Shown here: positions 3,075 through 45,440 of the stretch, one piece after another
Numbering within the stretch: the first letter of the stretch is position 1
Layout of the letters: each line of letters opens with the position of its first letter
Assembly: GCF_029531655.1 (NCBI RefSeq)
Contig: NZ_JANRMI010000007.1
Span: forward strand, 1-64,000
Length of the DNA: 64,000 nt
Direction: 5' to 3'
From: Bdellovibrio svalbardensis
GTDB lineage: Bacteria > Bdellovibrionota > Bdellovibrionia > Bdellovibrionales > Bdellovibrionaceae
Notes under the pieces: model-generated
What the model was told of the DNA's origin: nothing
The model's input: the letters and a program-made list of their open reading frames with translations, nothing else
Database searches by the model: none
Position numbers and translations under genes: made by a program

Positions 3075-5000
3075 TTAGGCGATGCCCATCGCGCGAAGGC
3101 CTTGTACCAAGCCTACCGCCAAGAAGTAGGCGACCACGTTGAAAAGTATCAACTGTGTCAGCGCCATCTTTAGCGAGCCGCTTTCGCGGACTTGTACGGC
3201 AAACGTGGACATGCACTGAAGTGCAATCATAAAGAAGACAATAAGCCCCAGAACACTGCTGACTGTGAAGATCTTTTGGCCCTGGGTATTCACCGCATCC
3301 GCCATGGTTTTCAACATGGATTCCTGCTGAGTGTCTTCGTTTTTGTCGGTGACATTAAAGACAATAGCCATCGAAGAAACAAACACCTCACGCGCTGCAA
3401 ATGCAGAGAGCAAGCCCACACCAACACGCCAGTCTACACCCATCGGCGACATGACGGGCTCCATAACATGGCCCATTTGTCCCGCGTAGCTAGTTTGCAA
3501 TCTTTGAGAGTCTTCCGCCTGATAGTTCGGGAAATTGGTTCCGGCCCAGATCAAGATCGCGAAAATAAAGATCGGCGGCCCCGCGCGTTTCACGTAAGAC
3601 ATCGTGCGAGTCAAAGACTGACGAAGCAAGACACGGAATTTAGGTTTGCGATAAATCGGCAGTTCCATCATAAAAAACGACGTGTCTGTTTTCGGCAAAA
3701 ATCTATTTACAATTCCAGCCGCAATTCCACCGATAACCAAAGCCCCTAGATACAAGAATGCGAGTGCAAATCCCGCCTGCCATGCCGGCTTCCCGTGAAA
3801 CAAGAAGGCCAACAACAAGGCATAGATCGGCAAGCGCGCAGAACAAGTCATCAAAGGGATCACAAAGGATGTGATCCAACGATCACGGCTTGAAGAGATA
3901 TTGCGAGTTGCAATGATCGCAGGAACCGCACAGGCAAACCCAGACAACACCGGAACAAACGAACGTCCGCTCATCCCCAGCGCCGAAAAAGGTCGGTCAA
4001 TCAAAGTCGCGGCACGCGCCAAGTAGCCCGAACTTTCCAAAAGTCCGATACCAAAGAAAAGAATAAAGATCTGCGGTACGAAAACCATCGCCGCACCCAT
4101 GCTGGCAATGATTCCATTCGCTAAGAAATTCGACCACAATGAATCAGGAGCCATATGCAAGACCGCTTGATTCATAAAACTAAACGCCTGATCCACCCAA
4201 TCCATCAAAGGAGCTGCGGCCCAGAAGATAGAAGAGAACAACAGCCCCATGATACCGATGAACATCACCAAACCAAACCATGGATGCAACAGGATGCGAT
4301 CGATCGTTTCGGTATTCTTAACGATATGATTCAAACGATCTTCCGCATGATCCGTTTTGTGCGTCAAAGCCTCGCCGGCGATTTTCTCGCACTCTTTAAG
4401 CTTTTCATCCAAGACTTCAAAACCCCAATAGACGGGCTTCACCACCGAGGACTCTTTGGGAATCTTCTTTGCTTCTGCAACGATTTCCAAAAGTCCACCA
4501 GCCAGCAATCCATCAAATTGCAAAACCGGGCACCCCAAAGTTTTACGTAGATAGTCCATGTCGATCTCAATGCCTTCTCTGCGAAGAAGATCGGCCATCG
4601 TCACAACCACGATCATCGGGAAGCCAGTCTCTTTCACCTGCAAAGCCAATTGCAAATGGCGAGACATTTGAGTTCCATCAATTACGACGATGATGCCATT
4701 TACTTTCCCAAATTCAGGACTGTTGTAAATCGCTTTCAACGTCACTTCTTCATCCGCACTCTTAGGATGCAAAGAGTATGTTCCCGGCGTATCCATCGCA
4801 GAAAAGCCCTCACCAAGATGAGAAGCCAATTTACCGACAGAGTACTCAACCGTTGCTCCAGGATAATTCACCGTTTTAAAACGTGATCCGGTCAGCCAGT
4901 TGTAGAGAGTTGTTTTTCCAGAATTAGGGGCACCGACAAGAGCAATTGCCAATTCAGAAGATTGAGTTTGATCGTTTACTTGAGTGTGATTGTCGCGCAT
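3075..5000 (-). CDS. feoB: Ferrous iron transporter FeoB
   Basis: FeoB imports Fe2+ across the inner membrane and couples a cytoplasmic G domain to a helical pore. The P-loop GAPNSGKT is at residues 23-30 and the G3 motif DTPGT at 70-74. At the G4 position the sequence is TMAD (134-137) rather than the usual NxxD. The C-terminal part has two gate-type repeats with SGRSFVPVLSGFACAVPAI and conserved Cys, and many hydrophobic helices. At 641 residues it is shorter than the 773-residue E. coli protein, as in many bacteria. It overlaps feoA by 25 bases, and GAGGAAG precedes the start. Confidence 0.95.
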   Translation of the reverse strand: MRDNHTQVNDQTQSSELAIALVGAPNSGKTTLYNWLTGSRFKTVNYPGATVEYSVGKLASHLGEGFSAMDTPGTYSLHPKSADEEVTLKAIYNSPEFGKVNGIIVVIDGTQMSRHLQLALQVKETGFPMIVVVTMADLLRREGIEIDMDYLRKTLGCPVLQFDGLLAGGLLEIVAEAKKIPKESSVVKPVYWGFEVLDEKLKECEKIAGEALTHKTDHAEDRLNHIVKNTETIDRILLHPWFGLVMFIGIMGLLFSSIFWAAAPLMDWVDQAFSFMNQAVLHMAPDSLWSNFLANGIIASMGAAMVFVPQIFILFFGIGLLESSGYLARAATLIDRPFSALGMSGRSFVPVLSGFACAVPAIIATRNISSSRDRWITSFVIPLMTCSARLPIYALLLAFLFHGKPAWQAGFALAFLYLGALVIGGIAAGIVNRFLPKTDTSFFMMELPIYRKPKFRVLLRQSLTRTMSYVKRAGPPIFIFAILIWAGTNFPNYQAEDSQRLQTSYAGQMGHVMEPVMSPMGVDWRVGVGLLSAFAAREVFVSSMAIVFNVTDKNEDTQQESMLKTMADAVNTQGQKIFTVSSVLGLIVFFMIALQCMSTFAVQVRESGSLKMALTQLILFNVVAYFLAVGLVQGLRAMGIA

Positions 5001-5206
5001 TGCGCTTCCTCATTTCGAAGAGCCAAGAAGCTGGTTTTAAAGCGCACCAAAAGAGGTCCGCCGAACGGGGCTCTTCCTAAGATTGTAACCAACATACCTG
5101 CATGCAAACCCATCTCATGAAGACGTTCACGGATGAGATCCTCACCACCCAAACTTTGGATTTTTACGGTTTGCCCTGGTTTTAAAGATAAATCGAGTAA
5201 GGTCAT
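4976..5206 (-). CDS. feoA: Ferrous iron transport accessory protein FeoA
   Basis: This 76-residue SH3-like domain protein begins MTLLDLSLKPGQTVKI and contains RERLHEMGLHAGMLVTI and FGGPLLVRF, the FeoA pattern. It binds FeoB and is needed for Fe2+ uptake. It is the first gene of feoAB and its end overlaps the feoB start. AAGGA precedes the ATG. I found no convincing Fur box in the upstream 200 bases. Confidence 0.93.
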   Translation of the reverse strand: MTLLDLSLKPGQTVKIQSLGGEDLIRERLHEMGLHAGMLVTILGRAPFGGPLLVRFKTSFLALRNEEAQCATITLK

Positions 5207-5383
5207 GGGTTTCCTTAAGAAATTAGATACTTAGTTAAGATTATAAGGGCATAAAGGGAAGTTCTTTGGCCTCGCAAAACCCACTTGAAAACAAGTTGAT
5301 AATCTCCCCCTCCCCCCTATGCCAAGGTTTAGAAAAATAACCCTGGACTAAGACAAATAGACCACGTCGTTGGTCGTGTTTTT

Positions 5384-5410
5384 GTGGGGAATTATCAAGT
5401 TTGTCCCCAC
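5384..5410. other. Hairpin in the leader of the 5429 gene
   Basis: GTGGGGA (5384-5390) pairs with TCCCCAC (5404-5410). It lies 18 bases before the ATG at 5429 and could be in its 5' UTR. A second small palindrome, ACTTG-AAAA-CAAGT, is at 5283-5296. The function is unknown. Confidence 0.4.
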
Positions 5411-5428
5411 TAGACCGATCTGAAGTCT

Positions 5429-6490
5429 ATGGATAAACGTCTTAAGACCATCATCGGTGTTTGCAGCCTGATTCTAATGACGCACCTGCCCGCAAAGGCT
5501 TCAGAGGTGTTCTATTCGCCTGATCTTTGCGCACCCGAAGAGCTCAATCTGGTTTTAATCAACAACTCTGATCAGCCACTCAAAGCTTGGACCCAAGTAC
5601 GCTCAAAGATGGATATCGATGAGATTCAATTTGATATTCCCGCACAAACGAAATCTAAAATTTCTGGCGACGAGTTTTTGAAATCTCGCCAGGCTTTCAC
5701 CGTTAAAACGAACGACAACGATAAACTTCAAGTCATTCTTCAGTGCGCACATCGGCCAGAACTCTCTCTTGGCACCTTCACTTCTCCAGAAGTCACACAT
5801 CTTTTTTCAAAGCCAACTCAAAGCCTTAAGATTCATCTCTTAAATCTTTTCTTGAAATCTAACAGTGTGAAGATGAAAGCTTTGGGTTCATTGGGCGAAG
5901 TGATCGAAGAAAGATCCATCACTCTTGAGAACTATTATGATACGGAATCGCTAAAGTGGATTTTACCTCGTCCGGTCAGCCGACTTGAGATCTCTGGAAC
6001 GGATCGACTTCATTCAGAAGTTCTTTATGAATCTCAAGACGTTGAACTTCAAAGTAAGGGTTCTGCTTTAAAAAATGTGACTTTCAATGTGAATCCAGAA
6101 AAGACTTATTTCCTGGTTTCCACGAAAAACCAAAACCCCAGCGGGGCCTTTGTGATCGCCTTGGATGAAGCGCAAAAAATTGCCACGGCTCGCGAGCAAA
6201 TTGCCGATCCAGAACTTGAGAAAATTGTCGTAGCAACCGTGAGCCTGGGATCAGGGAATTTCAATCGTGCCTTTGCCAGCCCCGACAAATCACCCTACTC
6301 TTGGAGTGTTTCACAAGTCGATGCCTTTGCCGATTTTGCCCATATCGACTGCGATGGCAGCCCGGATTTGGTAGAAGAACGTTTGGAAAGAAAACTGCTC
6401 GAGGGAGGACGCATTTGCTTCTGGCGCTACCGAGTGGTGCGCGAGCTTTCCCCTCTGGAAGTTTCAACGGGATTACTTCTTAAGCCTTAG
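5429..6490 (+). CDS. Secreted protein of unknown function
   Basis: The 353-residue protein has a signal peptide (KRLKTIIGVCSLILMTHL, likely cleaved after PAKA). The mature part looks like beta-rich extracytoplasmic domains: VLINNSDQPLKAWTQVRS resembles an immunoglobulin-like strand pattern, and Cys residues are sparse but include HIDCDGS and GRICFW near the C-terminus. I recognise no family. The 3' end overlaps the convergent PTPS gene by 11 bases. No membrane anchor or lipobox is present, so periplasmic or secreted location is inferred. Confidence 0.7.
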   Translation: MDKRLKTIIGVCSLILMTHLPAKASEVFYSPDLCAPEELNLVLINNSDQPLKAWTQVRSKMDIDEIQFDIPAQTKSKISGDEFLKSRQAFTVKTNDNDKLQVILQCAHRPELSLGTFTSPEVTHLFSKPTQSLKIHLLNLFLKSNSVKMKALGSLGEVIEERSITLENYYDTESLKWILPRPVSRLEISGTDRLHSEVLYESQDVELQSKGSALKNVTFNVNPEKTYFLVSTKNQNPSGAFVIALDEAQKIATAREQIADPELEKIVVATVSLGSGNFNRAFASPDKSPYSWSVSQVDAFADFAHIDCDGSPDLVEERLERKLLEGGRICFWRYRVVRELSPLEVSTGLLLKP

Positions 6491-7969: not shown

Positions 7970-8797
7970 CTACTTGATCAGCGGACCATTGACCTTCACA
8001 GAAGGCCCCAGGTTCAAATGACCTTCGAACTTCTGACGGAAGCTCGGTGGATAAAGCATCACGATCGTCGAGCCCATGCGGAACATTCCGAGCTCGGCAC
8101 CCTTGTGAGTCGGAATCTCTGGCGAGTAGAACTTATGCTGGAAGATATGGGGACCTTTTTGATTGCCTTGAATCTGCTCATCAAAGCTCAGGCAGATATG
8201 ACCCACATTAGTCGCACCCACAAAGACCACGCCCACCGGGCCCAAATCAGTATCGATCTCCACCAAAACACGTTCATTTACAGAGAACAAATTTTTGATA
8301 TTTGTCGTGCTCCACTCATTCACTGGCCACAACTCGCCCGGCATATAACGAACTGAAGTGATATCCCCATCGACTGGAGAGTGCACGCGGTGATAATCCG
8401 TTGGGCAAAGATAATATGTGAGGAAAAAGCCACCGGCCCATTTTTTATCGCAATCTGGGTCTTGAGTGAACTCACTCAATTTATAGGTGATCCCTTTTGC
8501 CTGAATCAAAGTCCCATCATCAATCGGCGCGGATTGTGTGATTTTGCTATCCGCTGGATGAACGGCCCAGGTATTTGCCACGGGACGAGTGCCTAACTTC
8601 AAACGACGGATGAAGAAATCGCCGATGGAGGGGTACTCTGTGTAGGGTTTTTCAGCCTCTTCGAGGTTGATGTTATAAAACCACGCGAAAGATTTCACGG
8701 TGGCGCGGGCCCAAAATTTAGGTCCACGGTAGTGCATAAATTTCCCGACCCAGCGACTGAGGCGGCGTTTTGGAAGAATTCTTGTAATTGCTGACAT
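7970..8797 (-). CDS. psd: Phosphatidylserine decarboxylase proenzyme
   Basis: Psd converts phosphatidylserine to phosphatidylethanolamine at the inner membrane and self-cleaves to form a pyruvoyl group. The 275-residue protein has FFLTYYLCPTDYHRVHSPVDG (catalytic Asp/His region). Near the C-terminus it has MGSTIVML, the LGST-type cleavage site where Ser becomes pyruvoyl. IGDFFIRRLK is also a family segment. The length is typical of proteobacterial Psd. It stands alone, divergent from the FAD dehydrogenase gene. Confidence 0.95.
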   Translation of the reverse strand: MSAITRILPKRRLSRWVGKFMHYRGPKFWARATVKSFAWFYNINLEEAEKPYTEYPSIGDFFIRRLKLGTRPVANTWAVHPADSKITQSAPIDDGTLIQAKGITYKLSEFTQDPDCDKKWAGGFFLTYYLCPTDYHRVHSPVDGDITSVRYMPGELWPVNEWSTTNIKNLFSVNERVLVEIDTDLGPVGVVFVGATNVGHICLSFDEQIQGNQKGPHIFQHKFYSPEIPTHKGAELGMFRMGSTIVMLYPPSFRQKFEGHLNLGPSVKVNGPLIK

Positions 8798-8862
8798 ATT
8801 ATTTACTTACCCCAGCCTTCCCCCTTTGTCACTCACAGCCTTTTTGGTATAAAAGAGACCTA

Positions 8863-8879
8863 CTCCGGCGATTCCGGAG
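8863..8879. repeat. CTCCGG hairpin in the leader of the 8935 gene
   Basis: CTCCGG (8863-8868) and CCGGAG (8874-8879) form a short stem. Similar ACTCCGGC/GCCGGAGT hairpins stand before htpG (56854) and, as ACTCCGAC/GTCGGAGT, at 37990. Confidence 0.5.
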
Positions 8880-8934
8880 GCTAGCTGAACAAAGCAACCC
8901 CTATTGGCACATAACAAGGCCCAGAAGGATCCCC

Positions 8935-10479
8935 ATGTCGAAGATATTCAACAATATCGAAATCCCTATTGACCAAGACCTCGAAGAAAAACTTCAATAC
9001 TTGATGCCTGAGCACGGCCCTTACCGCATTCTTCGCCAAAGCGTGGATGCTCGCCGCGCTCACTCTCCGCATTTTGTCTATTCGGTGGAAGTAGCGGCCA
9101 AGGGCGAAACCTTAAGCAATCCACAATTTGATCTTGAGAAAATCAAAACTCCCTCCGAGAAGCCTTTGATCGTGGGAACAGGCCCTGCCGGACTTTTCGC
9201 AGCCTTGCGCTTTGTTGAGCGCGGAGTTCCATGTGTGTTGTTTGAGCGTGGTTCTGACAGTGGCGAGCGCATGAAGGGCATCAATCAATTCTGGCGCTAT
9301 GGCAAACTCGATACTCGCAACAACGTGTGCTTCGGTGAAGGTGGCGCAGGTCTTTACTCTGATGGTAAATTGATCACGCGTATTAAGTCTCCGCACATCC
9401 CTTACGTGATGAATCGCTTGGTGAAATTTGGCGCGCCCGAAGAGATTCAATGGCTTTCAAATCCCCATGTGGGATCCGACCGCATTCGCCGTGTGATTCC
9501 CAAACTTCGTGAGTTCTTAAAAGCCAATGGTTGCGAGATTCATTTCAATACACAAGTGACTGAGATTCTGACTGAAGGCAAACAGGTCGTCGGCGTGCGT
9601 ACTGAGCATGGCACCGAATTTAAATCTCCACATGTGATTCTGGCGACGGGCCATTCTGCCGAAGATATGATCAATCACCTGCATGAATTGGGCGTCCACC
9701 TTGACGGCAAATCATTCGCCATGGGCCTGCGTATTGAGCACTCGCAAGCCGATATCAATAAGATTCAATATCGTCAGTTCTCGGAGCATCCCAAATTAGG
9801 TGCTGCCAATTATAAGCTTGCCGACCATGACGACGAAACTGGTATTGGAGTTTACTCATTCTGTATGTGCCCGGGAGGCTATGTTCTGTCTGCCGGCACG
9901 GAAGCTGACGGCTTGGTTTGCAACGGCATGAGCAACTACAATCGCAATTCGCCCTATGCGAATGCCGCGATCGTTGTCAGCATTGATCACAATAAACTAT
10001 TCGGCAATGACACTTTCGGTGGCATGAAACTTCGCCGTGAATTGGAAACGAACGCCTTCAAAGCGGTTCAATCAGCCGGTGGAACACGCGAGCTGCCAGC
10101 ACAAAATTTGATGGACTTCCTGGGCGGCACTTCAAAAAAAGGCCCTCGTGCTTTGCGACCGGGATCATCTCCATCTGGAGCTCTGAACATTCGCCTGGAC
10201 GAACTTCTTCCCAAGCATATGACGACGCGAATTCGCGAAGGTCTTGAGAAATTCAATCGCAACATGAAAGGCTTCGTCGTCGAAGACGCCCAAGTCTATG
10301 GCATCGAGTCCCGCACCAGTTGCCCTGTTCGCGTAACCCGCGACAACGAAACTTTAGAAAGCATCTCGCACCCCGGCCTTTACCCCGCCGGCGAAGGTGC
10401 AGGCTATGCCGGCGGAATCACCTCCGCCGCTTGCGACGGAATCAAGATCGCCGAAAAAATCATCGCAAAATTGTCTTAG
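8935..10479 (+). CDS. FAD-dependent dehydrogenase (COG2509-like)
   Basis: This 514-residue flavoprotein has VGTGPAGLFAALRFVERGVPCVLFERG (about residues 79-105), a Rossmann FAD site with its GxGxxG motif, and a second conserved segment HVILATGHSAEDM. CFGEGGAGLYSDGKL and the C-terminal GLYPAGEGAGYAGGITSAACDG close the FAD site, as in uncharacterised COG2509 dehydrogenases. The substrate is unknown. ATG 8935 is chosen because AGAAGGA precedes it; the frame is open back to 8788. A strong terminator follows. Confidence 0.88.
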   Translation: MSKIFNNIEIPIDQDLEEKLQYLMPEHGPYRILRQSVDARRAHSPHFVYSVEVAAKGETLSNPQFDLEKIKTPSEKPLIVGTGPAGLFAALRFVERGVPCVLFERGSDSGERMKGINQFWRYGKLDTRNNVCFGEGGAGLYSDGKLITRIKSPHIPYVMNRLVKFGAPEEIQWLSNPHVGSDRIRRVIPKLREFLKANGCEIHFNTQVTEILTEGKQVVGVRTEHGTEFKSPHVILATGHSAEDMINHLHELGVHLDGKSFAMGLRIEHSQADINKIQYRQFSEHPKLGAANYKLADHDDETGIGVYSFCMCPGGYVLSAGTEADGLVCNGMSNYNRNSPYANAAIVVSIDHNKLFGNDTFGGMKLRRELETNAFKAVQSAGGTRELPAQNLMDFLGGTSKKGPRALRPGSSPSGALNIRLDELLPKHMTTRIREGLEKFNRNMKGFVVEDAQVYGIESRTSCPVRVTRDNETLESISHPGLYPAGEGAGYAGGITSAACDGIKIAEKIIAKLS

Positions 10480-38690: not shown

Positions 38691-39110
38691 ATGTTTCCAA
38701 ATACAACAAAGTTTTTAGTGGTGGATGACTTCGCAACTATGCGAAAGATCATCAAAAAAGTCCTAACTGAGCTTGGTTATACCAATGTCGAGGAAGCGGA
38801 TGACGGCAAAACAGCCCTTCCGATGATCCAGGCAGCTCATGACGCAGGTAAGCCTTATGAATTCATCATTTCTGACTGGAATATGCCAGGAATGCAGGGA
38901 ATTGACCTTCTTAAGGCCTGCAAGGCAGACCCTCGCTTCAAATCAACACCTTTTATGTTGGTTACCGCAGAGTCTGAGCAAAAACATATTTTAGAAGCCG
39001 CGAAGGCTGGAGTTTCTGACTACGTTGTTAAGCCTTTCAACTCCCAAACTTTGAAGGGCAAGATGGAAAGAGTGTACGCGAAGCACTATCCATCAGCGAA
39101 AGCGTCTTAA
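38691..39110 (+). CDS. cheY: CheY-type response regulator
   Basis: This is a 139-residue single receiver domain: FLVVDDFATMRKIIKKVL (acidic pocket D12, D13), phospho-acceptor D62 in IISDWNMPGM, T92 and K114 in VVKPF. The sequence is close to chemotaxis CheY rather than a transcriptional regulator, and no output domain follows. GGAG precedes ATG 38691; the frame is open from 38652. cheX and an HD-GYP protein follow. Phosphorylated CheY would bind the flagellar switch. Confidence 0.93.
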   Translation: MFPNTTKFLVVDDFATMRKIIKKVLTELGYTNVEEADDGKTALPMIQAAHDAGKPYEFIISDWNMPGMQGIDLLKACKADPRFKSTPFMLVTAESEQKHILEAAKAGVSDYVVKPFNSQTLKGKMERVYAKHYPSAKAS

Positions 39111-39143: not shown

Positions 39144-39644
39144 ATGTCTGCTGCACCCAAAGTGGAAGCACTCAACCCTCTATTCGATAAAAGGCTGATT
39201 AACGCCTTTGTTGACGGAGTTTTAAAAACCTTAAAAACAATCGCCTCGACCGATGCGAGCCCGGGAAAACCCTTCATCGAACCACAGTTCGTTTTGAAGG
39301 GTGAAATCGCCGGCATGGTCGGCATGGTCGCCCCTCCCCTCAAAGGCACTCTTTTGATCTCTTATGGCAAAGACAGCATCTTCCACATCCTGGAGAATAT
39401 GCTGGGCGAAAAATACTCTGAGATCAACGGCGAGGTCTCTGATGCCGTGGGCGAAATGACAAATATGATTTATGGGTCTGCTAAAACAACCCTGAATCAA
39501 CTTGGTTATAATTTCGAGATGGCGATTCCAACTGTTATCTCTGGTGACTTTAAAATTTCTCATGCTGATAAGGGCGCCACTCTGGTTATCCCCTTCAACT
39601 TGACCAACGGATCCACTTTTTATGTGGAGATCACGGTGCAATAA
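39144..39644 (+). CDS. cheX: CheX-like CheY phosphatase
   Basis: The 166-residue protein has the CheC/CheX fold. FILKGEIAGMVGM-like and DAVGEMTNMIYGSAKTTL (about residues 97-114) hold the conserved E...N of the CheX active site, and GTLLISYGKDSIFHILENML is the preceding helix. CheX dephosphorylates CheY-P. It is 33 bases after cheY, and its stop overlaps the next start (TAATG), so the three genes form an operon. AGGAG precedes the ATG. Confidence 0.88.
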   Translation: MSAAPKVEALNPLFDKRLINAFVDGVLKTLKTIASTDASPGKPFIEPQFVLKGEIAGMVGMVAPPLKGTLLISYGKDSIFHILENMLGEKYSEINGEVSDAVGEMTNMIYGSAKTTLNQLGYNFEMAIPTVISGDFKISHADKGATLVIPFNLTNGSTFYVEITVQ

Positions 39645-42886: not shown

Positions 42887-43966
42887 GTGACGCCTCAGGA
42901 GATGACCGCACTTATCACTAAACTTATCAAAGATGAATTGCCCGAATTGGGATTCTCTCATTTCGGCTTCTCGGCGTTGTCAAAACCCCTGAGCTTTGAG
43001 TTCTATCAGGGGTGGCTGAACGAAGGCCTGCATGGGGATATGAAATATCTCGAAGATCACGCCCCGATCAAAGAAACTCCGCAAGCGAAGTGGCCCCGGG
43101 CTCAATCCGCCTTGGTCTTTGCTATTCCCTATTTTCCACACCCCGAAGGCAAAGCCGACTTTCCACTAAAGGCTGCTCGAGTCAGCCTTTACGCTCAGGG
43201 AATGGACTATCACTTCTGGTTTCGCGAACGCATGCAGAAACTATGCACCAGCTTACAAGAGAAATTTCCTGACGAAGAGTTTTTATCTTTCACTGACAGC
43301 AGTCCAATTCTGGAGCGCGACCTGGCAAAGCGTGCCGGCTTGGGGTGGGTAGGAAAAAACACCTGCCTGATTCACCCCAAGAAAGGCAGCTTGTTTTTCA
43401 TCGGCGAAATCTATACCTCGCTAAAAATGACGACGGAGTTCGAGCCAGTCCCTGACTTCTGCGGCACCTGCACTCGCTGCATTGACATCTGCCCCACAGG
43501 AGCCCTGCTCGAACCTCGCAAAATGGATGCACGCAAATGCATCTCTTATCTGACCATTGAATCTCGCACTCTTCCTCCTGAGGAATTGCGCGAAAAAATT
43601 GGCGACTGGTTTTTTGGATGTGATCTTTGCCAGACCGTCTGCCCTTGGAACCAGAAAGTTTTCAAGGGACAACTTTCCATCGAAACAAATCTAACGCTGA
43701 ATGAAGAACAAACGCAGAGTCTAACGGAAGATCTACGTTATATTCTGTCCGCATCAGGTAAAAAACTTGAAAAAGATTTTTGGGGAACGCCTTTGGCGCG
43801 GGCGGGATCTTTTGGTCTTAAAAAGAATGCGCTCATAGTGGCGGGGAATAAAAAGCTTTTGCCCCTCAAAGAAGAAGTTCAAAAGCTCACTCACCATGAA
43901 AAACTTGGACCTCTGGCCCTCTGGACTCTGAAAAAGCTGGCTTCTGTAGAACCTGAGAAATCTTAA
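42887..43966 (+). CDS. queG: Epoxyqueuosine reductase QueG
   Basis: QueG reduces epoxyqueuosine to queuosine in tRNA using cobalamin and two [4Fe-4S] clusters. RAGLGWVGKNTCLI is the B12-domain signature. CGTCTRCIDICPTGAL and FFGCDLCQTVCPWN are the two ferredoxin-type cluster motifs, and a C-terminal HEAT-like helical region follows. The start is GTG 42887 or ATG 42902. Its 3' end overlaps the convergent gene by 4 bases. Together with queD (7006) it indicates de novo queuosine. Confidence 0.95.
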   Translation: MTPQEMTALITKLIKDELPELGFSHFGFSALSKPLSFEFYQGWLNEGLHGDMKYLEDHAPIKETPQAKWPRAQSALVFAIPYFPHPEGKADFPLKAARVSLYAQGMDYHFWFRERMQKLCTSLQEKFPDEEFLSFTDSSPILERDLAKRAGLGWVGKNTCLIHPKKGSLFFIGEIYTSLKMTTEFEPVPDFCGTCTRCIDICPTGALLEPRKMDARKCISYLTIESRTLPPEELREKIGDWFFGCDLCQTVCPWNQKVFKGQLSIETNLTLNEEQTQSLTEDLRYILSASGKKLEKDFWGTPLARAGSFGLKKNALIVAGNKKLLPLKEEVQKLTHHEKLGPLALWTLKKLASVEPEKS

Positions 43967-44478
43967 AGACCCAGCTTCTTGAGAAGATCATCGATCTCTG
44001 ACTGCTTCATCTTCTTCTCTGCTTGGCCCGTATTCACACTCATACTGTATTCCTCAGAGAACTGCTGCGAAACCCATCGCAAACGTTCGATAAAGGCTTC
44101 TGGGATCGTATTGCGCAAGACATCTGCCGCATCATAGATATGCTCCAATAAAACTTCCAAAGTCTCTGTCGCATCCAACAAAAGTGCTAGGCATATATTA
44201 AAGAACTGTTCATTGTCTTTGATTTGTGAGGCTTTATAACCTACGGCTTTGCACAGGGCTGCGTAATCAGAAATTAATGGTAATGCGTGGTTGTCATCAC
44301 CCATCAACGCCAGATTCTTCGCACCACCCATGATGCGATCCACGTTATTGCCATAATTCGCCAACTCTTGAACGCGAGAAAAATCACCTTCAATACTTTC
44401 GAGAAGGTCTATCAACTCTGCAATTAAGGTCTTTGACTCGGCTACAAAATCTTCTACAATTTCTTTATCAATCGACAT
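43963..44478 (-). CDS. Degenerate Hpt protein with CheZ-like C-terminal peptide
   Basis: This 171-residue helical protein aligns with a CheA Hpt domain (1-125). Around NNVDRIMGGAKNLALMG the phosphorylatable His is Asp47 and the usual Lys is Met50, so phosphotransfer is unlikely. The last 12 residues, SEIDDLLKKLGL, resemble the C-terminal CheY-P-binding peptide of CheZ (VDDLLDSLGF in E. coli) and the N-terminal motif of FliM. It is separated from the next HD-GYP gene by only 35 bases, divergently. A CheY-P-binding or phosphatase-like role is inferred. ATG 44478 is preferred; the frame is open to 44514. Confidence 0.7.
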   Translation of the reverse strand: MSIDKEIVEDFVAESKTLIAELIDLLESIEGDFSRVQELANYGNNVDRIMGGAKNLALMGDDNHALPLISDYAALCKAVGYKASQIKDNEQFFNICLALLLDATETLEVLLEHIYDAADVLRNTIPEAFIERLRWVSQQFSEEYSMSVNTGQAEKKMKQSEIDDLLKKLGL

Positions 44479-44513
44479 CCGCTTAACGATAGCAACCGAA
44501 GGAATTCTAGGCA

Positions 44514-45440
44514 ATGGATTATGTCTCTATTCGCGTAAGTACATTACGCGGCGATCAGAAGATCGACTTTAACGCCTATATAAAGATCAATGAAAAAATG
44601 ATTCTCTACCTTCGTCGTGGCGATAGTTTCGAAGGCGATCGCTTACAACGCCTCAAAGAAAAGAAACTGAAAAAAATGTACATCCTGACGGATGAGGAAA
44701 TCACCTATCGCAACTATCTGCAAAAGAACATTGAAGTTGCCTACGATAACACCTCAAACAAAGACATTCAGACTCGCGCTGAAATCATCCAAGGTGCGCA
44801 ACAAAATAACACCGAAGAAGTCTTTGAGAACCCTGAGAATGTTGAGTCCTACAATTACGCGAAAGATGCGGCTGGAAAATACGTTAGCTTTATCATGAGC
44901 AACGCCCAGGCTCTTACGTCTGTCATGAAACTCGAAAACACCGATAAGAATATTGCCCATCACGGTGTGACGGTTTCCACCTTGGCAATTGCACTCGCTC
45001 AGAAGCTTGGAATCAGTGATCCTAAAAAAACGCAGCTCCTCACTCTGGGCGCACTCCTTCACGACTATGGACACCATCATTCGAGTTTGAATTTAAGCCA
45101 GCCACTTGACAAAATGAACCCGCAAGATTTGGCAAATTGGAAGAAGCATCCTCAAACCGGCGCTGAAAAAGTTCAGGATAAAAAGCATTTCGACCAGGCT
45201 GTTATCAATATCATCGCTCAGCATGAAGAGACCTCCAACGGCACCGGCCCATTGGGATTGCGTGAAAAAGACACCGACCCATTGGCAGTTATTGTGTCCT
45301 CTGCCAACGCCATGGACCGCCTCATCACTTTTGAAGGTGTTCCTCAAGCTGAGGCTGCAAAGAAACTGATGATTGAGCATGTCGGCAAACATCCTCTTCA
45401 ACATATTCAATTTTTGAACGAGATCATGAAGGGGCTGTAA
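44514..45440 (+). CDS. HD-GYP-type metal-dependent phosphohydrolase
   Basis: The 308-residue protein has an N-terminal domain (about 17-75: IDFNAYIKINEKMILYLRRGDSF) similar to the middle domain of the 39644 gene. Then comes a complete HD set: H149/H150, LLHDYGHHHSSL (H183, D184), KKHPQTGAE (H212) and QHEETSNGTGPLG (H237). The final GYP reads GTGP. It probably hydrolyses cyclic dinucleotides, and its output may tune motility. Its end shows a duplicated stop region. Confidence 0.85.
   Translation: MDYVSIRVSTLRGDQKIDFNAYIKINEKMILYLRRGDSFEGDRLQRLKEKKLKKMYILTDEEITYRNYLQKNIEVAYDNTSNKDIQTRAEIIQGAQQNNTEEVFENPENVESYNYAKDAAGKYVSFIMSNAQALTSVMKLENTDKNIAHHGVTVSTLAIALAQKLGISDPKKTQLLTLGALLHDYGHHHSSLNLSQPLDKMNPQDLANWKKHPQTGAEKVQDKKHFDQAVINIIAQHEETSNGTGPLGLREKDTDPLAVIVSSANAMDRLITFEGVPQAEAAKKLMIEHVGKHPLQHIQFLNEIMKGL

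Follow-up and report, generated by a model that had tools for sequence, protein, structure and literature searches.

To our knowledge, the CheY-P phosphatases of known mechanism belong to few folds. The body of CheZ is a long hairpin, and in plants pseudo-HPts of the AHP6 type, in which Asn replaces the phospho-His, are thought to block the phosphorelay. The active site of CheY receives an amide and an acidic side chain both from CheZ and from CheX (PMC3035606; PMC3510030), and the two proteins coexist in Campylobacterota (PMC9321776). The P1 domain of CheA docks on CheY by helices A and B, which brings its His near the phospho-acceptor Asp (PMC2817712), and the Spo0E family is made up of small response-regulator phosphatases whose signature motif contains a conserved aspartate (PMC3035606).

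The window (the whole 64,000-nucleotide stretch of Bdellovibrio svalbardensis DNA that was analysed; source genome of 3.9 Mb, with Bdellovibrio as close relatives) encodes a protein in which an Hpt-like domain precedes a peptide resembling those that bind CheY. Each half is of a known kind, and the combination was not found described: a literature search of partial coverage returned no published account of a pseudo-Hpt with a CheZ/FliM-type tail. At the coordinates given in the preliminary description, the open reading frame lies on the minus strand and runs from 44478 down to 43963; its translation ends in ...KKMKQSEIDDLLKKLGL. The gene and its parts are as follows.

43963..44478, minus strand: pseudo-Hpt gene (P0001), ATG start, 171 aa, stop included in the span (translation; orthologues and matches across the phylum)
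44038..44478, minus strand: CheA-P1-like Hpt domain, residues 1-147, a helical bundle (AlphaFold, structural matches, Pfam Hpt in orthologues)
44347..44349, minus strand: Asn44, the Asn/Gln three residues before the His position, a candidate catalytic amide with a putative role (conservation)
44338..44340, minus strand: Asp47 at the phospho-His position (profile alignments to CheA P1 and conservation)
44329..44331, minus strand: Met50 at the conserved Hpt Lys position (conservation; register from the T. maritima CheA P1 profile alignment)
44248..44250, minus strand: Lys77 at the Hpt Glu position, T. maritima CheA Glu67 (conservation; register from the profile alignment)
44005..44037, minus strand: linker, residues 148-158 (pLDDT < 50 at residues 147-158 of the model; length differs among orthologues)
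43966..44004, minus strand: C-terminal CheZ/FliM-type peptide QSEIDDLLKKLGL, residues 159-171 (strict motif in orthologues; weak match to the Pfam CheZ end)
44486..44514, minus strand: possible own promoter, TTGCCT-17 nt-TATCGT (similar boxes genus-wide, read by eye)

A longer N-terminus from an upstream TTG (183 aa) was ruled out, since what is conserved in the upstream frame is the antisense strand of the beginning of a divergent HD-domain gene. The starts of the two genes are 35 bases apart (44479-44514). Promoter-like boxes of the TTGCCT-17 nt-TATCGT type are kept across the genus and end about 7 bases before the ATG, and no Shine-Dalgarno sequence was evident upstream of the ATG in the genus comparison; the message may therefore be leaderless. 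The -35 box of the candidate promoter extends as far as the HD gene's start codon.

The AlphaFold model of the window protein (46 orthologues; pLDDT 87) is a helical bundle followed by a low-confidence linker and a short C-terminal helix at residues 160-168. Its best structural match was Salmonella CheA P1 (1i5n; Z 14.3, 125 residues, 2.5 A), narrowly ahead of other CheA P1 domains. An orthologue sharing 37% identity with the window protein was also modelled (pLDDT 84); its model matched T. maritima CheA P1 (1tqg) at Z 16.6 (1.8 A, 104 residues), and natural Hpt domains made up 18 of its best 24 Foldseek matches. The fold searches also returned designed helix bundles and bundles of the talin or FAT type, which we attribute to a common helical arrangement. 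Such an arrangement can by itself bring helical bundles to a Z near 13-14, so that independent sequence evidence matters. This evidence comes through orthologues and profiles, not from the window protein alone, for which Pfam and NCBIfam gave no meaningful match, neither Hpt nor CheZ being significant; a short and weak match to DUF6576 (E 0.11) was dismissed. The Pfam Hpt cut-off of 24.6 was passed by orthologues L083 (28.4 bits), L086 (27.4) and L090 (25.7), and profile A2 (48 members) aligned with T. maritima CheA P1 (E 0.0027) such that His45-Asp, Lys48-Met and Glu67-Lys are in register; the CheA-type kinases of relatives gave the same register at the His. The preliminary description had proposed a degenerate Hpt domain, and structure prediction for two distant orthologues returned the CheA-P1 (Hpt) fold, an unrelated fold not being seen. 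Most likely the protein is a free-standing pseudo-Hpt whose ancestor was the P1 (Hpt) domain of a kinase of the CheA type.

With CheA P1 the pseudo-Hpt shares the helical bundle, profile-level homology and the register around the phospho-His, whereas it differs in having Asp for His, Met for Lys and Lys for Glu, in standing free and in carrying a CheZ/FliM-type tail. Across the family alignment of 93 members, the phospho-His position (Asp47) is Asp in 92, Glu in 1 and His in 0, the Hpt Lys position (Met50) is Met in 88, and the position of the Glu that supports the His in Hpt domains (Lys77) is Lys in 92 and Arg in 1. None of the 93 members has the phosphorylatable His in an HxxKG motif that marks an Hpt domain. 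Alignment with CheA P1 thus bears out the Asp and Met replacements that had been named before, and the Glu to Lys77 replacement is an addition. Since the fold and ancestry are those of Hpt but the defining His and Lys are missing, we call the protein a pseudo-Hpt; judged by these residues, the domain is most likely no longer able to carry a phosphoryl group on histidine. At position 44, which precedes the His position by three residues, 90/93 members have Asn or Gln, paired with Asp/Glu at 47; the CheA P1 domains compared have Arg there. When invariance was scored on 74 representatives below 80% identity, Phe11, Arg132, Asp47, Lys77, Asp102, Arg48, Gly51, Trp135 and Tyr81 were nearly invariant. 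The phosphotransfer residues have been lost, yet the old active site is under strong constraint.

Behind a linker of variable length stands a conserved C-terminal helix, QxEIDDLLxxLG. The strict motif Q-x(1,2)-[IV]-D-x-[LF]-[LMIF] occurs within the last 16 residues of 56/79 family hits, as against 0/1023 other ORFs of the same loci. It is present in 49 of the 54 Bdellovibrionaceae members (of the other five, one is cut off by a contig end and the rest are near-variants), in 9/14 from other families of the order, in 11/11 of those that lie between cheY and cheX, and in 1/14 of the remainder. Most members of group f26 and several of group f12 keep Asp47 but have a changed or missing tail. A tail lacking conservation, which the preliminary description had set as a test of its proposal, was not found; the motif is kept in most orthologues. 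That description had called the tail CheZ-like. The resemblance to the CheZ end held, and the tails of several orthologues match the last residues of Pfam CheZ weakly, but it is not specific to CheZ: the N-terminus of the organism's own FliM, which starts MNQVLSQSEVDALL (QSEVDALL), is about as similar (MNQVLSQSEVDALLAAV in FliM, ...KMKQSEIDDLLKKLGL at the end of the pseudo-Hpt). We therefore use the term CheZ/FliM-type CheY-binding peptide and not merely CheZ-like. Unlike the FliM peptide, the pseudo-Hpt tail is C-terminal, sits on another protein and ends in L-x-x-L-G, an ending that FliM is without. Aligned with E. coli CheY, the window CheY keeps Ile95, Ala99, Tyr106, Val108, Phe111, Leu116 and Lys119, which we take to be the peptide-groove residues of the E. 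coli protein.

CheZ (PF04344) was found above cut-off in 0/369 Bdellovibrionota genomes. The pseudo-Hpt is like CheZ in its helical body, flexible linker, C-terminal Q-x-x-[IV]-D-D-L-L-x-x-L-G and the acid and amide on one helix; unlike CheZ, it has an Hpt bundle as its body, its 74 representatives have no conserved DxxxQ catalytic motif, and only its last residues match Pfam CheZ, weakly (best match among the 46 A1 members, E 0.031). A canonical CheZ identity was rejected on these grounds, the resemblance being confined to the tail. CheX and CheC have the same presumed substrate, and in one lineage CheX is encoded next to the pseudo-Hpt, but they have another fold and the ExxN motif, whereas the pseudo-Hpt model is helical and has no ExxN among its conserved residues; 1/46 family members matched Pfam CheX, at E 0.039. 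Plant pseudo-HPts share the Hpt fold and the replaced phospho-His, but they work in the plant phosphorelay and have no CheY-type tail. Spo0E shares the conserved aspartate and has another target; the QxxD spacing of the pseudo-Hpt presumably recalls the Spo0E motif, a remark for which the literature search gave no support.

A pseudo-Hpt orthologue is present, one per genome, in 54 of the 66 Bdellovibrionaceae genomes searched, and the profile matched in 175 of the 369 Bdellovibrionota genomes; where a genome gave a second match, this is in some cases likely a CheA-type Hpt domain, two of which matched the pseudo-Hpt profile. A single scan of genome contigs yielded matches in close Bdellovibrio relatives only; the profile searches covered Bdellovibrionota. 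The gene is absent from 12 Bdellovibrionaceae genomes and from about half of the FliM carriers of the phylum. In genus g17 of the Bdellovibrionaceae (G043-G056), 11/14 genomes are without the gene, FliM is present in 14/14 and CheX in 9. FliM is present in 170 of the 175 carriers of the family, the five others (G019, G079, G092, G094 and G136) having a listed completeness of 66-88%. Among FliM carriers, a CheX match was found in 164/170 genomes with the family versus 77/149 without it, counts that ignore the kinship of the genomes and take in any CheX-domain gene.

The genes of the window that bear on the function of the pseudo-Hpt are the following.

38691..39110, plus strand: CheY, probable partner (structure-based alignments; active-site Asp, Thr and Lys present)
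39144..39644, plus strand: CheX with the ExxN phosphatase motif (GEMTN), probable partner (Pfam CheX, 75 bits; aligned to CheX/CheC structures)
44514..45440, plus strand: HD-domain (HD-GYP-like) gene, divergent neighbour, kept in most loci (Pfam HD)

The window CheY aligned with the CheY homologue structure 3to5 at E 1.8e-41 and with E. coli CheY at 1.5e-37. In Bdellovibrionaceae the pseudo-Hpt gene is usually divergent from an HD-domain gene, with cheY-cheX a few kilobases away where the locus is intact. In 11 loci (11/11) of one lineage, f12, by comparison, cheY, the pseudo-Hpt gene and cheX follow one another in this order on the same strand, separated by 12-67 bases; the chemotaxis link, which the preliminary description had drawn from the presence of CheY and CheX in the locus, is thus stronger than could be seen from this window. 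In 53/74 entries, spread over several families of the phylum, the family gene has an HD-domain gene next to it. The HD protein at 44514-45440 has LLHDYGH, but it has QHEETSNGTGPLG where HD-GYP proteins carry the GYP motif.

We infer that the pseudo-Hpt is a dedicated CheY-P binder in the CheY-CheX module of Bdellovibrionota and that it most likely dephosphorylates CheY-P via Asn/Gln44 and Asp47, a reading to which we assign a probability of roughly 0.45. The computational results on fold, homology, replaced residues, tail and gene linkage speak for it, as do the CheA-type kinase gene next to the family member in L094, the lack of CheZ in the genomes of the phylum that were searched and the co-occurrence with FliM and CheX. 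The tail would sit in the CheY-P groove that also accepts the N-terminal peptide of FliM, and helices A and B of the Hpt face would dock across the active site of CheY as those of CheA P1 do. Such docking would bring Asp47 and Asn/Gln44, which are a single helical turn from each other, to the phosphoryl group of CheY. Asn/Gln44 would then position a water molecule and Asp47 would serve as the acid contact for dephosphorylation, as with the amide/acid pairs of CheZ and CheX. It is this precedent, together with the docking geometry of CheA P1, that makes CheZ-like dephosphorylation appear the most likely activity. Against it, the order and spacing of residues 44-47 match neither CheZ (DxxxQ) nor CheX (ExxN), and a canonical orphan Hpt of the same genome (L125) also carries Gln at position 44. 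The window CheX keeps ExxN, so that a second phosphatase is not obviously needed, although two phosphatases side by side would have a precedent in the coexistence of CheZ and CheX in Campylobacterota. The CheY-P binder reading as a whole also has to contend with the altered or lost tail of some members that keep Asp47 and with the many FliM carriers from which the gene is missing. More tentatively, the family may represent a new class of CheY-P phosphatase, made of a dead CheA phosphotransfer domain and a CheY-binding peptide, that replaces CheZ in much of the phylum and works through an amide-then-acid pair (N/Q-x-x-D) at the old phospho-His site.

The replacement of the Hpt catalytic residues throughout the family and the closeness of the tail to the organism's own FliM N-terminus would also be consistent with a protein that binds CheY-P and does not hydrolyse it: the tail would compete with FliM and the dead Hpt face would cover the CheY active site, sequestering CheY-P or blocking phosphotransfer from CheA. 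The term pseudo-HPt is established in the literature for plant proteins. We consider such sequestration less likely than dephosphorylation but a serious rival; an amide/acid pair and a Lys77 that hardly vary hint at something beyond passive covering, although these residues may just fix the binding. A role as adaptor, conveying CheY-P to CheX or raising CheX activity in a way comparable to that of CheD with CheC, is less probable still, though it too is a serious rival. It would account for cheX being the next gene in all 11 loci of one lineage and for the rarity of the family without CheX among FliM carriers (6/170), but in Bdellovibrionaceae the two genes lie a few kilobases apart, contact with CheX would have to be supposed, and 77 FliM carriers have CheX without the family. 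It is least probable, in our estimate, that the pseudo-Hpt works for the neighbouring HD-domain protein (44514) or for a different receiver in place of the flagellar CheY, with the tail as a generic docking helix; the frequent adjacency of the HD gene in several families points in that direction, as do the degenerate tails in most f26 members and in f12 loci without an adjacent cheY, whereas the presence of FliM in nearly all carriers, the tight linkage to cheY and cheX in one lineage and the match of the tail to known CheY-binding peptides argue against it.

If the CheY-P binder reading is true, a phosphatase or trap for CheY-P would have evolved from the domain that phosphorylates CheY, a kinase part turned off-switch, and this would explain how predatory Bdellovibrionota without CheZ end the CheY signal; it offers a single gene for testing how that signal ends in the phylum.

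Two family members lie near kinase genes. In L094 a CheA-type kinase gene (3415-5961; REC-Hpt-HATPase-CheW) lies 13 bases upstream of the family member, and in L121 a REC-Hpt ORF of 333 aa (8068-9066), which may be the opening portion of a split kinase gene, is situated two genes upstream, with a 530-aa ORF between; the tails of both family members are degenerate.
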